Assembly: GCA_937996665.1 (NCBI GenBank) | Contig: CALKUU010000001.1 | Span: 1 to 32,979 of the forward strand | DNA length: 32,979 nt | Source: an uncultured Xenococcaceae cyanobacterium | GTDB lineage: Bacteria > Cyanobacteriota > Cyanobacteriia > Cyanobacteriales > Xenococcaceae | Direction of reading: 5' to 3' | Shown: piece by piece, positions 18,720-24,946 of the stretch | Layout: each line of letters starts with the position of its first letter | Position numbering within the stretch: the first letter of the stretch is position 1 | The notes under the pieces: model-generated | What the model was told of the DNA's origin: nothing | Databases searched by the model: none | What the model saw: only the letters and a program-made list of their open reading frames with translations | Made by a program: the position numbers and the translations under genes

Positions 18720-18916
18720 AATCCTTGCGTTAGCTCATATTTGGTCATTCAATAACTCAGCTGTATCGCTGCAAAATGGGGAAATCATTTATGACAAGTA
18801 ATTTCTAAGGTATGTTTCGCAAGGAGCAAGACCCCAGGTTAATACTTGACTTTTTGTGTATACAAACACAGTATTTCCAGAAAAAAAAATTTTATTCCTT
18901 TAGGGAGAATCTTTTA

Positions 18917-19792
18917 ATGGCTTTTGGACCAGCATCAGAACTTGGTGTCGGCTTATTTGAGGATACAGCTCCTCTTGAGTACGTGCCAGGTCGCTCTGAA
19001 GAAGAAGCGGAATCCATTATTCGTGCCGTTTACAGGCAAGTTTTAGGCAATGCCTATGTAATGGAGAGTGAAAGGGCAGTTGTCCCCGAATCTCAATTTA
19101 AAAGAGGAGAACTTAGTGTTAGAGAATTTGTGCGAGCGATCGCCAAGTCTGATGCTTATATGTCTCGCTTTTTTGAAACTAGTCCTCGTTACCGTTTTAT
19201 CGAGTTGAACTTCAAACACCTATTAGGTCGTGCACCTAATAGCTTTGAAGAAATGAAAGCTCATAGCGCTAATCTCGACCAAAGTGGTTACGAAGCAGAA
19301 ATTGATTCTTATCTCGATAGCGATGAGTATCAAGAAGCTTATGGGGAATATTTTGTTCCTTATTATCGTGGTTACAAGACTAAATCTGGCCAAACCATGG
19401 TTGAATTTACTCACATGTTTGCCATGTTAAGAGGCGCTTCCTCTAGCGACTTTAAAGGAAGCTTAGCAGGTAAAACTCCTGTGCTTAATAAAAACATTAT
19501 TCAAGGCACACCAATTTCCATTGTTCCTCCTTCTGGTGGATCTGCTGGAGATGGCTGGTCTTTCCGCGAACCCACTCTTGGGTCACGCTCTCGTCATGGG
19601 GCCGGTGCTGGCGAAAATGGCAAGGTCTATCGCATTGAGGTAACTGGTTATGCTTCTCCTGGCGCTGTAAATCGAGTTTCCAGATTCCGTCGTAGCAACA
19701 AAGTTTATCTTGTTCCTTTCGACAAATTATCTGAAGAATACAAACGGATTCACAGACAAGGCGGCAAAATTGCCAGCATCACAGCAGTTTAG
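18917..19792 (+). CDS. cpeC: Phycoerythrin-associated rod linker CpeC
   Basis: A 291-aa phycobilisome rod linker that sits in the central cavity of a phycoerythrin hexamer and joins it to the next disc. The N-terminus (MAFGPASELGVGLFEDTAPL) and the Pfam00427 linker domain at about 23-160 (SIIRAVYRQVLGNAYVMESE ... RYRFIELNFKHLLGRAPN) strongly resemble CpeC of Fremyella. A Gly/Ser-rich hinge at 205-233 leads to a C-terminal CpcD domain at about 235-291 (KVYRIEVTGYA ... GGKIASITAV). I chose the start at 18917 because GGGAGA lies 9 bp upstream and the family starts here; the frame is open 35 codons further back to 18812 but that part is unlike any linker. First gene of the cpe operon. Confidence 0.93.
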   Translation: MAFGPASELGVGLFEDTAPLEYVPGRSEEEAESIIRAVYRQVLGNAYVMESERAVVPESQFKRGELSVREFVRAIAKSDAYMSRFFETSPRYRFIELNFKHLLGRAPNSFEEMKAHSANLDQSGYEAEIDSYLDSDEYQEAYGEYFVPYYRGYKTKSGQTMVEFTHMFAMLRGASSSDFKGSLAGKTPVLNKNIIQGTPISIVPPSGGSAGDGWSFREPTLGSRSRHGAGAGENGKVYRIEVTGYASPGAVNRVSRFRRSNKVYLVPFDKLSEEYKRIHRQGGKIASITAV

Positions 19793-19837
19793 TAAAAGCA
19801 AAATTTTTGATTTTACTAACATCAAGAGAAAAAACGG

Positions 19838-19884
19838 CTGGGAAAACTAGCTAGAGTAACGAGTTGCGCTAGCTAATCTTCCAG
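19838..19884 (+). repeat. Inverted repeat in the cpeC-cpeD spacer
   Basis: An inner 7-bp stem TAGCTAG/CTAGCTA with a 14-nt loop is enclosed by an outer CTGG(G)AA/TTCCAG stem. It has no T-run, so it is more likely an mRNA processing or stability element than a terminator. cpeD's AGGAG follows 23 bp later. Confidence 0.65.
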
Positions 19885-19923
19885 TTATTAGGTTGAAAAT
19901 TTCATTCAGGAGAAATATACAAA

Positions 19924-20685
19924 ATGGCAGTTATCAACGCTCCATTTGAACTTTGGTCAGGCAGCAGTGCAGATGACAAAGCAGCAGTTATTCGTGCTGT
20001 TTATAACCAGGTTCTTGGCAATCCTTATGTAATGGAAAGCGAAAGACTTGTAAGTGCTGAATCTCAGTTGTGCAATGGCACTCTTTCAGTAAGAGAGTTT
20101 GTTAGAGCTGTAGCAAAATCAGACTTCTATCGTTCTCGCTATTTTGAGTCTTGTGCTCCCTACCGCTTTGTGGAATTAAACTTCAAGCACCTTTTGGGAC
20201 GCGCGCCAGAAGATCAAGCAGAACTTTCTGGTCACATCCAAACTTGCATTAATGCTGGTTATGATGCGGAAATCGATTCTTATATTGATAGCCAAGAGTA
20301 TTCTGAAAAATTCGGCGAAAACATCGTACCTTACTACATCGGTTCGAAAACTGAAGTAGGCAAAAAACAACTTAACTACAACCGCACTCTTTCTTTGTTT
20401 AAAGGATATGCAGAAGTAGACAGTGCAACTAAAAGCTCTGTGTTAGTTGATAGTGTTGCGGGTAACAGCTCAGTTTCTGCTGCTATTTCTCAGTCTAGTG
20501 GTCGAATTGCCGCTTATAAAGACGCAACGGAAAAAACTTTCAAAATTTTGGTTAAAGGTTCCAAATTTGATAGTCCCCGTCGTGTCAGTACTACTGAATA
20601 TCTTGTTCCTGGTAGTCGCATGACTCCTCAGATTCAAAGAATCAATCGTACTGGTGCCAGAATTGTCAGCATAACTGAAGTTTAG
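19924..20685 (+). CDS. cpeD: Phycoerythrin-associated rod linker CpeD
   Basis: A 253-aa rod linker with the same architecture as CpeC: Pfam00427 domain at about 18-150 (VIRAVYNQVLGNPYVMESER ... YRFVELNFKHLLGRAPED) and a CpcD domain at about 200-253 (KTFKILVKGSKF ... GARIVSITEV). The N-terminal leader is shorter and different (MAVINAPFELWSG). Size and operon position match CpeD in cpeCDESTR operons; naming is mainly by order and length. It carries several Cys (25-30 residues apart) not seen in CpeC. AGGAG lies 11 bp before the ATG. It should link a second phycoerythrin disc in the rod, more distal or proximal than CpeC. Confidence 0.87.
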   Translation: MAVINAPFELWSGSSADDKAAVIRAVYNQVLGNPYVMESERLVSAESQLCNGTLSVREFVRAVAKSDFYRSRYFESCAPYRFVELNFKHLLGRAPEDQAELSGHIQTCINAGYDAEIDSYIDSQEYSEKFGENIVPYYIGSKTEVGKKQLNYNRTLSLFKGYAEVDSATKSSVLVDSVAGNSSVSAAISQSSGRIAAYKDATEKTFKILVKGSKFDSPRRVSTTEYLVPGSRMTPQIQRINRTGARIVSITEV

Positions 20686-20694
20686 GTTGATGAT

Positions 20695-20744
20695 AGCTAT
20701 CCCAATTATTAAAGTGATTTTAACTTTTGGTAACTGGGATAGCT
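20695..20744 (+). repeat. Perfect 10-bp inverted repeat in the cpeD-cpeE spacer
   Basis: AGCTATCCCA and TGGGATAGCT are exact complements separated by 30 bp of A/T-rich DNA. There is no T-run directly after it. It begins 9 bp after the cpeD stop and ends 33 bp before cpeE. Confidence 0.75.
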
Positions 20745-20777
20745 TAGCAGTTAAATAAAAAATTTAGGAGGAAATCA

Positions 20778-21542
20778 ATGTCACTTTGGGTTCAAGCTTC
20801 CGACGCAGTAGAATTACGCCCTAACGCCACTGAAGACGATTTACAAACCGTAATTCGTGCGGTTTATAAACAGGTTTTAGGTAACGCACATCTTTTGGAA
20901 GGCGATCGCCTTACCGAAGCAGAGTCTTACTTACGTAACGGCAACATCACTGTTAGAGGTTTTGTCCGCGCAGTAGGTCAATCCGCGCTTTATCAAGCTC
21001 AGTTCTTCAATAATTCTTACCAATATCGTTTTATTGAGTTGAACTGTAAACACTTCTTAGGTCGTGCGCCTCAAGATCAGGTTGAAATTTCTCGCCACGT
21101 TCTCATTTATAACGAACAGGGCTACTCAGCCGATATCGATTCTTATATCGATAGTGATGAATATTCCGCAGCTTTTGGCGAAAATGTTGTGCCTTATGCG
21201 CGCAACACTGTTAGTCAATTAGGTAGCAAAACAGTTGACTTTAACCGTGCGTTCACTCTTTTCCGTGGAGATGCTACTAGCGATAGTGGCAAGTCTGCTC
21301 GCTTAATTGGTGATTTGGGTGGCAACATAGCATCTAAAATCAGTTTCCCCGCCAAAGGAAGCGGCGGTATTAGCAGCACTGGTAAAAGATTCCGCATTAC
21401 TACTTCCAACGCGGGAAGTGGATCTAACTATCGTCGTAGCAACTTCGTTTATGAAGTTAGCTATGCTCAATTGAGCCAAAAAATCCAAAATATCCAAAAA
21501 CTAGGTGGAAAAATCCGCAGTATCACTGAAGTAACTAACTGA
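20778..21542 (+). CDS. cpeE: Phycoerythrin-associated rod linker CpeE
   Basis: A 254-aa rod linker whose start, with 'VELRPNATEDDLQTVIRAVY' at about 11-30 and 'GNAHLLEGDRLTEAESYLRNG' after it, closely matches CpeE of Fremyella/Nostoc. Pfam00427 spans about 15-150 and a C-terminal CpcD domain about 200-254 (KRFRITTSNAGSG ... GGKIRSITEVTN). A good Shine-Dalgarno (AGGAGG) is 6 bp upstream of the ATG. In phycoerythrin rods CpeE usually organises the outermost disc. It carries a HIP1-type octamer (GGCGATCGCC) within the coding sequence. Third gene of the operon, followed by a hairpin and a small CpcD-like gene. Confidence 0.93.
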   Translation: MSLWVQASDAVELRPNATEDDLQTVIRAVYKQVLGNAHLLEGDRLTEAESYLRNGNITVRGFVRAVGQSALYQAQFFNNSYQYRFIELNCKHFLGRAPQDQVEISRHVLIYNEQGYSADIDSYIDSDEYSAAFGENVVPYARNTVSQLGSKTVDFNRAFTLFRGDATSDSGKSARLIGDLGGNIASKISFPAKGSGGISSTGKRFRITTSNAGSGSNYRRSNFVYEVSYAQLSQKIQNIQKLGGKIRSITEVTN

Positions 21543-21590: not shown

Positions 21591-21623
21591 AAGCTATAGT
21601 TAAGCGATTTGGAGGAATTAATT

Positions 21624-21917
21624 ATGTCTGGAATGGCTACTACTGGGACAACTGGGGTTAGTAATTATACAAACCGTACCGTTGTCATTGAGATCACTGG
21701 AGTTTGTCGTCAAGACATCGCTAGAACCAGTAACTATTCAGTTAAGGTTCCTTATAGTCAGATGTCTCAGACTATACAGAGTGTTTCTCGAATGGGAGGT
21801 AAGGTAGCAAATATAACCTTGATTCCTAGCTTAGACCATTTACCAACTGCGACTGCTTCGGCTCCTCAACCTAAAAAGGCGACTAGGTCAAAGAGATCGA
21901 AAAGAAGTAAAGAGTAA
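21624..21917 (+). CDS. Small CpcD-domain protein with a basic tail (possible rod cap)
   Basis: A 97-aa protein consisting of a CpcD-like domain at about 18-66 (TVVIEITGVCRQDIARTSNYS...GGKVANITLI), a Pro/Ala/Thr linker, and a basic C-terminus with eight Lys/Arg in the last 14 residues (KKATRSKRSKRSKE). The start at 21624 has GGAGG 8 bp upstream; an open frame reaches back to 21609 but lacks a site. Free-standing CpcD proteins cap the distal end of phycocyanin rods. Its place after cpeE suggests a cap for phycoerythrin rods, but CpcD of phycocyanin operons lacks, to my knowledge, such a tail. It could also bind RNA, a membrane or an acidic partner. It is not one of the six genes of the classical cpeCDESTR operon. 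Confidence 0.8.
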   Translation: MSGMATTGTTGVSNYTNRTVVIEITGVCRQDIARTSNYSVKVPYSQMSQTIQSVSRMGGKVANITLIPSLDHLPTATASAPQPKKATRSKRSKRSKE

Positions 21918-22122: not shown

Positions 22123-22656
22123 ATGAACATCACTGAATTTGTGGAGCTATCTTTTGGCGAATGGAGATCGCAGCGAAGTGCCCACCATCTAGCCTTTGCC
22201 CATTACGAAGAGGTAATCTCAACGATTAACATTGAGCAGATAGCTGTAGATGATAGTCGAGTAGCTGAACTTTGCAAACTTCACAATGTTGACCACAATC
22301 TAGCCATTAGTCCTTTCAAAATGAGCTGGGAAGGAGAATCCAACTGGGATGAAGACGAAACCCAAGAAGGATCAACTATTCTAATTCCGATCTCAGATTC
22401 TGGTGACCTGACCAAGGGTAGGTTACTGAGAGAGCAAGGCTATGCCGAAACAATCCCTTCGATCGGCGAATTTAAGATTAATGAAGATGGCACCTTTGTT
22501 TTAGTAACCAAATATGATCGAGCAGCAGCAGAAGAAAAAATTTGGTTCGTAACACCGAACTTACGCTGTCGAGTTTCTTTGATTAAAACGAGTAATGGCA
22601 AGGGTGTGACTACGGCTTCTTATTCTTCGGAAATACGTTCCCTTTCCAAATCGTAA
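22123..22656 (+). CDS. cpeS: Phycoerythrobilin lyase, CpeS/CpcS family
   Basis: A 177-aa S-type bilin lyase with a lipocalin-like fold. CpeS attaches phycoerythrobilin to the Cys-82 position (alpha or beta) of phycoerythrin. The N-terminus (ELSFGEWRSQRSAHHLAF, about 8-25) is the family signature, and 'SWEGESNWDED' near 67-77 with the C-terminal 'NLRCRVSLIK' and 'TTASYSSEIR' follow. Length fits. It precedes cpeT by 20 bp, and no strong Shine-Dalgarno is visible, which suggests translational coupling or leaderless-type initiation. Operon position, between linkers and cpeT, is as in cpeCDESTR clusters. The exact target cysteine is not shown by sequence. Confidence 0.93.
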   Translation: MNITEFVELSFGEWRSQRSAHHLAFAHYEEVISTINIEQIAVDDSRVAELCKLHNVDHNLAISPFKMSWEGESNWDEDETQEGSTILIPISDSGDLTKGRLLREQGYAETIPSIGEFKINEDGTFVLVTKYDRAAAEEKIWFVTPNLRCRVSLIKTSNGKGVTTASYSSEIRSLSKS

Positions 22657-22676
22657 CTTCTAAATCTAATAAGATT

Positions 22677-23303
22677 ATGTTATCAACTAGCGATCGCCAA
22701 AATCAGAGTCAGGATAATTTGCTAATTGGTTTGGCGAAAGTTATGGCTGGAGATTTTAGCAACTTTAAACAAGCTCAAAGTGACCCTAAAAATTATGGTC
22801 ACCTAAGGGTATTTTTTAGACCCTTGCCTTGGGAATTTTTTTCAGCGATCGGTTTCTATTCCGAGCAAGCCCAAGACTATGATTTGTGGACTCCTTACCG
22901 CCAAGGCGTTCATTGCCTAGTGGATAAGGGAGATCACATTTATATTGAAAACTATAGTCTTAAAGACGCCATGCTCTATGCAGGAGCAGGGCACAATCTA
23001 GACATCTTGAAAACAGTCAATCCTGATTGCCTTGAGCGCAGACATAACTGCTCTATGGTTTTCCGCAAACAAGAAGAGGTGTTTCGTGGGGAAGTAGAAC
23101 CGGGAAATAACTGCCTGATTGAGAAAGAAGGGAAAAAAACCTATTTGGTCAGTGAAGTTGAAATCACAGAAACAACTTGGGTTAGTTGGGATCGGGGCAT
23201 AGATATTGAAAATGGAGAACAAGTATGGGGTTCAGCAGCAGGACGCTTAAAATTTGAAAAACGGACTAGTTTTGCTGATGAATTACCCTTAGATAGATTT
23301 TAA
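22677..23303 (+). CDS. cpeT: Bilin lyase, CpeT/CpcT family
   Basis: A 208-aa T-type lyase; members attach bilin to the C-terminal cysteine of the beta subunit (Cys-153/155/165 group) of phycocyanin or phycoerythrin. The family features are 'HLRVFFRPLPWEFFSAIGFYSEQAQDYDLWTPYR', at about 41-74, then 'GDHIYIENYSLKD' and 'ETTWVSWDRGIDIENGEQVWGSAAGRLKFEKR'. The length is normal. It carries two HIP1 or HIP1-like sites near its 5' end. In Fremyella, CpeT acts with CpeS and other lyases; an early report also proposed a regulatory role for this gene group. It sits 57 bp before cpeR. Confidence 0.93.
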   Translation: MLSTSDRQNQSQDNLLIGLAKVMAGDFSNFKQAQSDPKNYGHLRVFFRPLPWEFFSAIGFYSEQAQDYDLWTPYRQGVHCLVDKGDHIYIENYSLKDAMLYAGAGHNLDILKTVNPDCLERRHNCSMVFRKQEEVFRGEVEPGNNCLIEKEGKKTYLVSEVEITETTWVSWDRGIDIENGEQVWGSAAGRLKFEKRTSFADELPLDRF

Positions 23304-23359: not shown

Positions 23360-23695
23360 ATGGGTTCTTTGGGGTTAAAAAGACGTATGCTGCCACCAGT
23401 AGCTCGCAAAAAAATGCAAGCATGGATTAGAAGCAGACATTTAATCTGTTCTGGTCACTTTTTTATTTTTGAAACCTTAGAATACTCTACTGTAGAAAGG
23501 TTTGAAGAGTGTGTCAAAAGTTTTGGTGGCACTTTGATTTCAGTTGATCCAACCAGGAAGGTCTGGATCGGCGATCATCGTCAGGTCATTCTTTATCAAG
23601 CCAAAGCTAGCCTTCATACTCCTCATCACGAACTGAAACAGTATTGGATTAAATACGGTGGATTTCATACCAGGTTTGATATCCGTTCTTGCTAG
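23360..23695 (+). CDS. cpeR: CpeR, activator of phycoerythrin operon expression
   Basis: A 111-aa protein that matches CpeR, the activator needed for cpeBA transcription in Fremyella under green light. The segment 'KKMQAWIRSRHLICSGHFFIFE' (at about 17-38), 'FGGTLISVDPTRKVWIGDHR' and 'HELKQYWIKYGGFHTRFDI' are the hallmarks; the family resembles PP2C-like proteins only weakly, and no DNA-binding motif is seen. A shorter start at 23387 (MLPPV) agrees better with the family as I recall it, while neither ATG has a good Shine-Dalgarno, so the first nine residues are uncertain. The target cpeBA genes are not in this window, so it acts in trans. Confidence 0.9.
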   Translation: MGSLGLKRRMLPPVARKKMQAWIRSRHLICSGHFFIFETLEYSTVERFEECVKSFGGTLISVDPTRKVWIGDHRQVILYQAKASLHTPHHELKQYWIKYGGFHTRFDIRSC

Positions 23696-23817
23696 AAGAT
23701 TACCTTTAGTCAGAGATTTATCTACCTCAAGAACAACTTAACTCAGTTAAAAAAATTAAAGCCTGTCTTGAAGATTATTTATTTGAGCCTACTTATTTAA
23801 GTAAAGGAGAATCAATT

Positions 23818-24867
23818 TTGAATAGTATTTTTATTAGTCCAGTAATTACCAGAGCTTCGGAGTTGGGAGTTGGCTATTATGAAGATAGCGATCGCCAAGA
23901 ACTTTTGACAAATTCTTCTGCCGAAGAAAAAGAAACTTTAATTAGAGCCATTTATCGTCAGATTTTAGGCAATGCCTATGTGATGGAAAGCGAAAGAGCC
24001 GTAATCGCTGAATCTCAATTTAAGAGAGAAGAAATTGGGGTCAGAGACTTCATTCGTCAGGTAGCCAAATCAGAACTATATTATTCTCGTTTTGTAGACA
24101 ACTGTCCTCGTTACCGAACAATAGAACTAAATTTCAAGCATTTTTTAGGACGTGCTCCTGAGAGCTACGCAGAAATGCAACTTCATAGTCATATTCTAGA
24201 CACACAGGGTTACGAAGCAGATATCGATTCTTACCTAGATAGTGATGAATACCAAAATAAATTCGGACAAAATATAGTTCCTTACTACTGCGGTTACAAA
24301 ACCCAAACAGGAAAAAGCATGGTAGGTTTTTCCCATCTATTCAAACTTCTAAGAGGCGCTTCTGGTAGCGACAAAAATCTCGTTCAAGGTAACTATTCTC
24401 GTTTAAATAGTTCCTTAATTAGCAATGCTCCCAGTAATTTCATTCCCCTTTCTACTGTCAATAGTTATGGAGGAATTACGGATATTCAGAAATTGCTAGC
24501 AAACTCGATCAAAGTCAACATCCCTTCCCCAGAAGCACAACAAACAGCAGAGAAGCAAGCAGCAGAGTTAGCAGCTCTTAGTTTAGCGACTGCCGAGCAG
24601 CAAAAAGCACAAGAACAAAAAGCAAAAATCGAGCAGCTCCAGCAAAAATTAGCTGAGCTAAAACCATTGTCAGACTTTGGCTCTAGAAGCCTTAACAAGT
24701 GGCAGAGCATGGTGAAGCCTGGGGCAGAAGAAGTAAGCAAGCCCAGTCAAGCAGTTTCTCCAGAACAAGAAATTGCAGATCTGGAAGTCCAAATAGCTGA
24801 CGCGCAGAGACTTGCCAACTTTGCAGATCTCCAACTAAATAAGTGGCGCAATAAAATCTTTAAATAG
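23818..24867 (+). CDS. Atypical phycobilisome linker, Pfam00427 domain plus coiled-coil repeat tail
   Basis: A 349-aa protein. After a short N-terminus with 'TRASELGVGYYEDSDRQ' (11-27) it has a complete Pfam00427 rod-linker domain at about 38-185 close to CpeC (IRAIYRQILGNAYVMESERA ... RYRTIELNFKHFLGRAPE). It lacks the C-terminal CpcD domain of CpeC/D/E. Instead it has a Gln/Ala/Glu/Lys-rich stretch (238-282, coiled coil likely) with two copies of a 25-residue motif at 271-295 and 319-343, both ending LNKW. The start is TTG at 23818 with AGGAG 8 bp upstream; no ATG fits. It lies 122 bp after cpeR and ends at a strong terminator. It could join phycoerythrin rods to something other than another disc, such as a membrane or different core. 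I do not recognise this exact tail. Confidence 0.82.
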   Translation: MNSIFISPVITRASELGVGYYEDSDRQELLTNSSAEEKETLIRAIYRQILGNAYVMESERAVIAESQFKREEIGVRDFIRQVAKSELYYSRFVDNCPRYRTIELNFKHFLGRAPESYAEMQLHSHILDTQGYEADIDSYLDSDEYQNKFGQNIVPYYCGYKTQTGKSMVGFSHLFKLLRGASGSDKNLVQGNYSRLNSSLISNAPSNFIPLSTVNSYGGITDIQKLLANSIKVNIPSPEAQQTAEKQAAELAALSLATAEQQKAQEQKAKIEQLQQKLAELKPLSDFGSRSLNKWQSMVKPGAEEVSKPSQAVSPEQEIADLEVQIADAQRLANFADLQLNKWRNKIFK

Positions 24868-24917
24868 ATTCTCAATCAAAAGGTAGTCAACTCCAAAAAA
24901 CAAGTTAGTTTTTTCTG

Positions 24918-24946
24918 AAAACGTACATTAAACCGTACGTTTTTTT
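24918..24946 (+). terminator. Intrinsic terminator ending the cpe locus
   Basis: AAAACGTAC and GTACGTTTT form a perfect 9-bp stem with an 8-nt loop and a run of seven T residues. It lies 50 bp after the last linker gene. Confidence 0.9.

Follow-up and report, generated by a model that had tools for sequence, protein, structure and literature searches.

A phycobilisome linker ending in a duplicated LNKW module, a probable new docking end and the basis of a broader module family

What does a phycobilisome linker attach its hexamer to when it lacks the CpcD domain? The question is raised by an open reading frame in the phycoerythrin gene cluster of an uncultured Xenococcaceae cyanobacterium, within the stretch of 32,979 nucleotides analyzed here (the window). 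An earlier note, based on the letters of the DNA, had described the encoded protein as an extra linker close to CpeC with a duplicated coiled-coil tail. The genes in the window are ordered cpeC-cpeD-cpeE-small CpcD linker-cpeS-cpeT-cpeR-tail-linker, and the relevant features are:

18812-21542, + strand: cpeC, cpeD and cpeE, ordinary rod linkers with PF00427 and CpcD domains (Pfam)
21609-21917, + strand: small CpcD-type capping linker (Pfam)
22123-23303, + strand: cpeS and cpeT, lyase-family genes (Pfam)
23360-23695, + strand: cpeR, directly upstream of the tail-linker (homologues in 124 of 291 genomes; order conserved in about 25 genomes)
23805-23809, + strand: ribosome-binding site AGGAG, 8 nt 5' of the TTG (read from the sequence)
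23818-24867, + strand: LNKW-tailed phycobilisome linker (P0001), 349 aa, TTG start, the start codon aligning with the ATG of relatives
23917-24288, + strand: PF00427 (PBS_linker_poly) domain, residues 34-157 (Pfam match and fold match)
24613-24708, + strand: LNKW module copy 1, residues 266-297 (271-295 in the earlier note; module profile E 7.3e-9)
24760-24861, + strand: LNKW module copy 2 at the extreme C-terminus, residues 315-348 (319-343 in the earlier note; module profile E 1.5e-15)
24917-24944, + strand: hairpin followed by a U-run, a probable intrinsic terminator 3' of the linker (MFE -10.5 kcal/mol, z -3.4)

The gene that we take to be cpeR has no Pfam match and was named by reference to the known cpeCDESTR operon. 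The stable hairpin and U-run after the tail-linker were overlooked by a simple terminator scan; given their position, the tail-linker is probably the last gene of the cluster. Its coordinates, TTG start and AGGAG are all as previously claimed. The TTG is, as judged from the reading frame, the sole plausible start of the 349-aa linker: no in-frame ATG or GTG was found upstream, which rules out an alternative upstream ATG start. The homologue in Hyella has a TTG at the same aligned position plus an in-frame ATG just upstream. The suggestion that the TTG reflects deliberately weak or tuned translation is unsupported, since most relatives use ATG at the aligned codon and the TTG is therefore not a family feature.

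The N-terminal part of the protein is an unambiguous linker domain, matching PF00427 with an E-value of 6e-49 (165.7 bits against a gathering score of 28.7), and its predicted fold resembles the PF00427 domain of CpcC (3pru, Z 22.6). In the tree it lies beside CpeC, albeit weakly (81/88), in agreement with the proposed kinship. By contrast, Pfam found no CpcD domain (PF01383) in the 23818-24867 frame, whereas CpeC, CpeD and CpeE of the same window each end in one; the exchange of the CpcD end for a coiled-coil tail thus holds as described. The C-terminus is a charged heptad helix with the last residues LNKWRNKIFK, and there is no membrane helix.

The two repeats lie exactly where they had been reported, at residues 271-295 and 319-343, and share I, L, A, L, F, L, N, K and W at matching positions (9 of 25 identical, BLOSUM62 score 50). 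The best 25-mer self-match in 300 shuffles of the tail scored no more than 42, and a profile of repeat 1 (42 proteins) matched a profile of repeat 2 (48 proteins) with 98.8% probability; together these comparisons rule out a chance repeat. While the duplication is real, the unit is longer than the 25 residues originally given. It is a heptad unit of about 36 residues ending in (I/F)GEAxLNKWRxRxF, thereby including a conserved RxRxF after LNKW, with hydrophobic columns at strict 3-4 spacing across 40 positions (L, V/S, Q, I, L, I, A, A, G, L, W, V). The corresponding module profile of 36 columns matched both copies in the window's whole genome and nothing further at E up to 1.

Counted over 48 non-redundant tail-linkers, two modules are present in 47, and the second always ends within two residues of the C-terminus. 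W is found in 48/48, N in 47/48 and F/Y in 48/48 of these proteins, while in the alignment of the first relatives L278, L281, G288, W295, L322, L340, K342, W343 and F348 are invariant. Among less saturated pairs, dN/dS is mostly 0.1-0.3 for the whole tail and mostly 0.04-0.12 for module 2, with higher and noisier values in two very close pairs. The tail is under purifying selection.

Structure prediction had been proposed for residues 230-349. For the single chain, AlphaFold2 gave two long helices (approximately 241-296 and 315-348) at moderate confidence, and the spacers between linker domain and tail and between the modules were predicted at low confidence. A compact tail hairpin has no support in this model of two separate helices (pTM 0.25). 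The model agrees with a coiled coil in need of a partner, without proving one. Structural matches to the tail were weak helix pairs (Z at most 5.3). A PDB search with the whole tail gave no match, and one with the module returned generic coiled-coil peptides alone, covering roughly module positions 1-25; in Pfam and NCBIfam no model covers tail or module. The literature searched holds no description of an LNKW tail or of the second protein class introduced below, although subscription journals lay mostly outside that search and an earlier account is possible. According to the earlier note such a tail is not known from described linkers, and these searches agree; nor is the repeat a common feature of a well-known linker group or the tail plain unconserved disorder, either of which the note had named as grounds for giving up its proposal. 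In our assessment this is a phycobilisome linker whose probable docking end is new and marks out a broader family of modules.

This wider family emerged when the repeat was searched as a profile, as had been suggested, which recovered a conserved C-terminal module in many relatives plus a second protein class. The order was sampled with 291 genomes, which are related to one another and partly drafts or MAGs; 130 of them are matched by the whole-tail profile and 126 by the module profile. A sample of 386 from across the phylum gave 41 matches, 39 from this order and two from elsewhere in its class. In the genome scan, tail matches reaching the C-terminus occur in Hyella, Pleurocapsa, Symploca, Mastigocoleus, Geitlerinema, Oscillatoria and others.

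Tail-linkers themselves are present in 47 of the 291 genomes and are associated with cpeR, which occurs in 43 of these 47 genomes vs. 81 of the other 244 (Fisher p 2.9e-14, a value in which the kinship of the genomes inflates independence). About 25 genomes encode the tail-linker 3' of cpeR in the same orientation, the intervening gap being -37 to 463 bp. Four tail-linker genomes are without cpeR, among them G005, G196 and G242, whose tailed linker domain groups apart, on a tree branch with phycocyanin (PC)-type linkers. This suggests that two or more lineages of linkers acquired the module.

The number of PF00427 domains in the 48 non-redundant tail-linkers is one in 32, two in 14, three in one and six in one; the tail-linker L139 has four. 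Pfam was used to test for CpcD in P0001 and L139, and elsewhere its absence was read from the position of the tail. The longest tail-linker seen is a protein of 1560 aa with six PF00427 domains and the LNKW tail (L233 in G068, ORF from 3821, - strand). The window's genome itself encodes a 1003-aa ORF with four PF00427 domains and no tail (L213, G000 contig C146, 2541-5549, + strand), which stops where the tailed L139 and L233 run on into the module; none of the three forward frames hides an LNKW tail behind it. On its 3' side lie a 219-aa linker with a hydrophobic C-terminus (CpcL-like) and then a 310-aa linker. A further 305-aa linker of this genome (L009, contig C187), whose N-terminus carries an unusual extension and whose C-terminal part shows no obvious CpcD, has its linker domain near the C146 linkers in the tree. 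Genes for CpcL, the membrane-helix linker, adjoin the tail-linker at L150, L221 and L230 and share a cluster with it at L182 and L187.

The second class comprises proteins with a basic N-terminus, a ribbon-helix-helix (RHH) domain, a long Gln-rich coiled coil and a C-terminal LNKW module. RHH_1 exceeds the Pfam cut-off in L134 and L211 and falls below it in other companions. Exactly one module copy is found, at the same C-terminal end, in 26 RHH proteins. Compared with linker repeat 2, this module scores 96 in hhalign (99.4%), whereas control coiled-coil segments of the same RHH proteins score 23-33, and a merely generic coiled-coil similarity is thereby ruled out. The RHH gene lies immediately 3' of the tail-linker in about 18 genomes (gap 7-1000 bp), follows cpeR with no tail-linker between them in L163, L167, L184-L186, L190 and L214, and is found elsewhere, among cpcS-like and CpcC-type linker genes, in L198, L199, L206 and L207. 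Many tail-linker genomes have no adjacent RHH gene, and plasmid records contained no named homologue of the RHH protein.

Other RHH-coiled-coil members carry a C-terminal transmembrane helix in the module's place. One of them is the 625-aa protein of the window's genome (L211, G000 contig C58, 4717-6591, - strand); in Hyella the gene for the same membrane-helix protein adjoins that for a 366-aa protein (L212). The module profile found no RHH protein ending in LNKW in the whole genome of the window. Since this genome has the membrane-anchored paralogue alone, on another contig, an RHH-LNKW partner is not always present, and an obligatory pairing with it is ruled out.

The module also has other carriers. 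A third tailed class, in genomes without detected cpeR, consists of HMA_2-domain proteins (L152, L153, L154 and L227-L229, from G241, G211, G112 and G257) with two LNKW-like modules, ending IGEARLKKYRKYL; the HMA_2 match in L152 reaches 48.6 bits in Pfam. In G008, a 154-aa protein (L140, 1877-2338, - strand) runs from an N-terminal membrane helix through a coiled coil to a C-terminal LNKWRYRHFSR module, and adjoins another coiled-coil protein ending in LNRW. An ORF in G259 (L223, contig C171, from 3363, + strand) joins a glycosyltransferase-like N-terminus to an LNKW tail, a fusion that may be due to recombination or a MAG assembly error.

How does this protein compare with known linkers? Like the CpeC/CpcC rod linkers (L_R; PF00427 + PF01383), it has a PF00427 domain and is encoded in the same cluster, and CpeC is its closest neighbor in the tree, with weak support; however, those proteins end in CpcD where the tail-linker has two LNKW helical modules. 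The rod-core linker CpcG and the rod-membrane linker CpcL likewise have PF00427 followed by a C-terminal extension in place of CpcD, which connects the hexamer to the core in CpcG (PMC8448738) and, as a helix, to the membrane in CpcL (PMC10322944). In the tail-linker, by contrast, the extension is a heptad module rather than a recognizable CpcG extension or membrane helix, and its domain forms a separate tree branch. The NCBIfam CpcG models score 92-108 bits on it vs. cut-offs of 420-440 and cover the PF00427 part alone, and the helix shown by the CpcL proteins of relatives is absent from the window protein.

Several PF00427 domains without CpcD, as in the longer tailed relatives (2-6 domains), are known from CpcN/CpcJ of Anthocerotibacter and Glr1262/Glr2806 of Gloeobacter. 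CpcN, called exclusive to Gloeobacteria, strings five phycocyanin hexamers into a chain (PMC10696076), and Glr1262 clusters rods in Gloeobacter, it and Glr2806 being called unique to that genus (PMC12525769). In the papers cited here, multi-PF00427 linkers without CpcD, ApcE-type core linkers aside, are described from Gloeobacteria alone (PMC10696076, PMC12525769), and only core, rod, rod-core, rod-membrane and core-membrane linkers are listed outside them (PMC10696076). Unlike the CpcN/Glr1262 type, the window protein has one PF00427 domain, and no LNKW tail is described for the Gloeobacteria proteins. In the tree, which comes from a short alignment with weak forks, the window domain lies by CpeC and the PC-type tailed group by CpcN/Glr. 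The RHH-coiled-coil proteins of the cpeR locus have the C-terminal LNKW module and the neighborhood in common with the tail-linker, but differ from it in their RHH N-terminus and long Gln-rich coiled coil, in bearing a single module rather than two and in having no linker domain. Lastly, red algal LRC3 rod-core linkers also continue from PF00427 into a long chain, and the Foldseek alignment to them (6kgx_zE, 5y6p_a8) extends well past the linker domain, with an rmsd of ~26 A over the long alignment. No LNKW match in LRC3 was found by profile, and the likeness is at most an analogy.

In known PF00427 linkers the C-terminal part joins the hexamer to its neighbor, be it the next disc, the core or the membrane, and the exchange of that part for two heptad modules also present in a coiled-coil protein of the locus makes coiled-coil docking to a non-disc partner the best reading. 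That the tail is a functional docking or oligomerization module is very probable. The earlier proposal, that rods are linked in this way to a target other than the next disc, is still the best account, and the presence of this module at the end of RHH-coiled-coil proteins encoded at the locus strengthens it. We hypothesize that the protein serves as an alternative linker for phycoerythrin (PE)-type, perhaps phycocyanin, hexamers and would bind PE rather than PC; its PF00427 domain would fill one hexamer cavity as in CpeC. The two LNKW modules stand in place of the CpcD domain that joins the neighboring disc. Each is an amphipathic heptad helix built on a small-residue core (A-A-G) and closing in a nearly invariant L-N-K-W-R-x-R-F. 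They may form a coiled coil with a matching partner module and thereby attach the hexamer or rod to a structure beyond the ordinary rod. Its most probable partners would be the same-locus RHH-coiled-coil protein, other LNKW tails, or both; a membrane-side protein is another candidate. To this statement in full, down to the type of non-disc partner, we give a probability a little short of even.

Alternatively, the tail might anchor directly to the phycobilisome core, a photosystem or the thylakoid surface, with its basic W/F end inserting in lipid or docking to a complex. The layout is that of CpcG and CpcL, an N-terminal PF00427 and a C-terminal extension without CpcD (PMC8448738, PMC10322944); the RHH-coiled-coil proteins end in the module in some cases and in a transmembrane helix in others, the 154-aa protein combines the two, and CpcL genes accompany tail-linkers at the loci named above. 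However, heptad spacing through the whole module is typical of protein-protein coiled coils, the tail-linker has no membrane helix, the CpcG models fall far below their cut-offs, and the domain groups with neither CpcG nor CpcL; we regard a direct anchor as rather unlikely. Another alternative is that the tail only self-associates, two or three linkers bundling rods side by side without a scaffold, as Glr1262 clusters rods in Gloeobacter (PMC12525769). Such an arrangement would suit the coiled-coil pattern, the two modules per chain and the relatives with 2, 3, 4 and 6 PF00427 domains per chain, and it would work without an RHH-LNKW partner, as in the window's own genome. Yet it leaves unexplained why RHH proteins of the same locus carry the module, exactly one copy at the same end in 26 of them, and self-association alone is unlikely.

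It is very unlikely that the system is an assembly, storage or regulatory factor, with the RHH partner bound to DNA or an operator and unassembled hexamers tethered to that partner by the linker tail. RHH_1 does exceed the Pfam cut-off in two tested companions, and the locus adjoins cpeR, but RHH folds can be mere dimerizers, and long coiled coils and membrane helices suit a scaffold better. A view of the tail as a functionless remnant, degenerate or disordered, which the low-confidence spacers before the tail and between the modules might suggest, is hardly credible given nearly invariant residues across 48 proteins, the low dN/dS of the tail and a module common to another family.

Taken together, docking of a hexamer or rod to a non-disc partner through the LNKW coiled coil is the reading that we prefer. 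More broadly, and tentatively, linkers with one to six PF00427 domains and LNKW modules may plug into RHH-coiled-coil scaffolds, either soluble and LNKW-ended or membrane-anchored, that hold PE or PC hexamers in chains or bundles apart from the rod-core stack; this would be an undescribed attachment system of crown cyanobacteria. As it stands, 47 of 291 genomes of one non-Gloeobacteria order carry linkers outside the classes listed in PMC10696076, and these linkers have a defined, probable docking module in common with another protein family encoded at the locus. This module offers a specific, testable handle on possible attachment of the phycoerythrin antenna by means other than discs, the core or CpcL.
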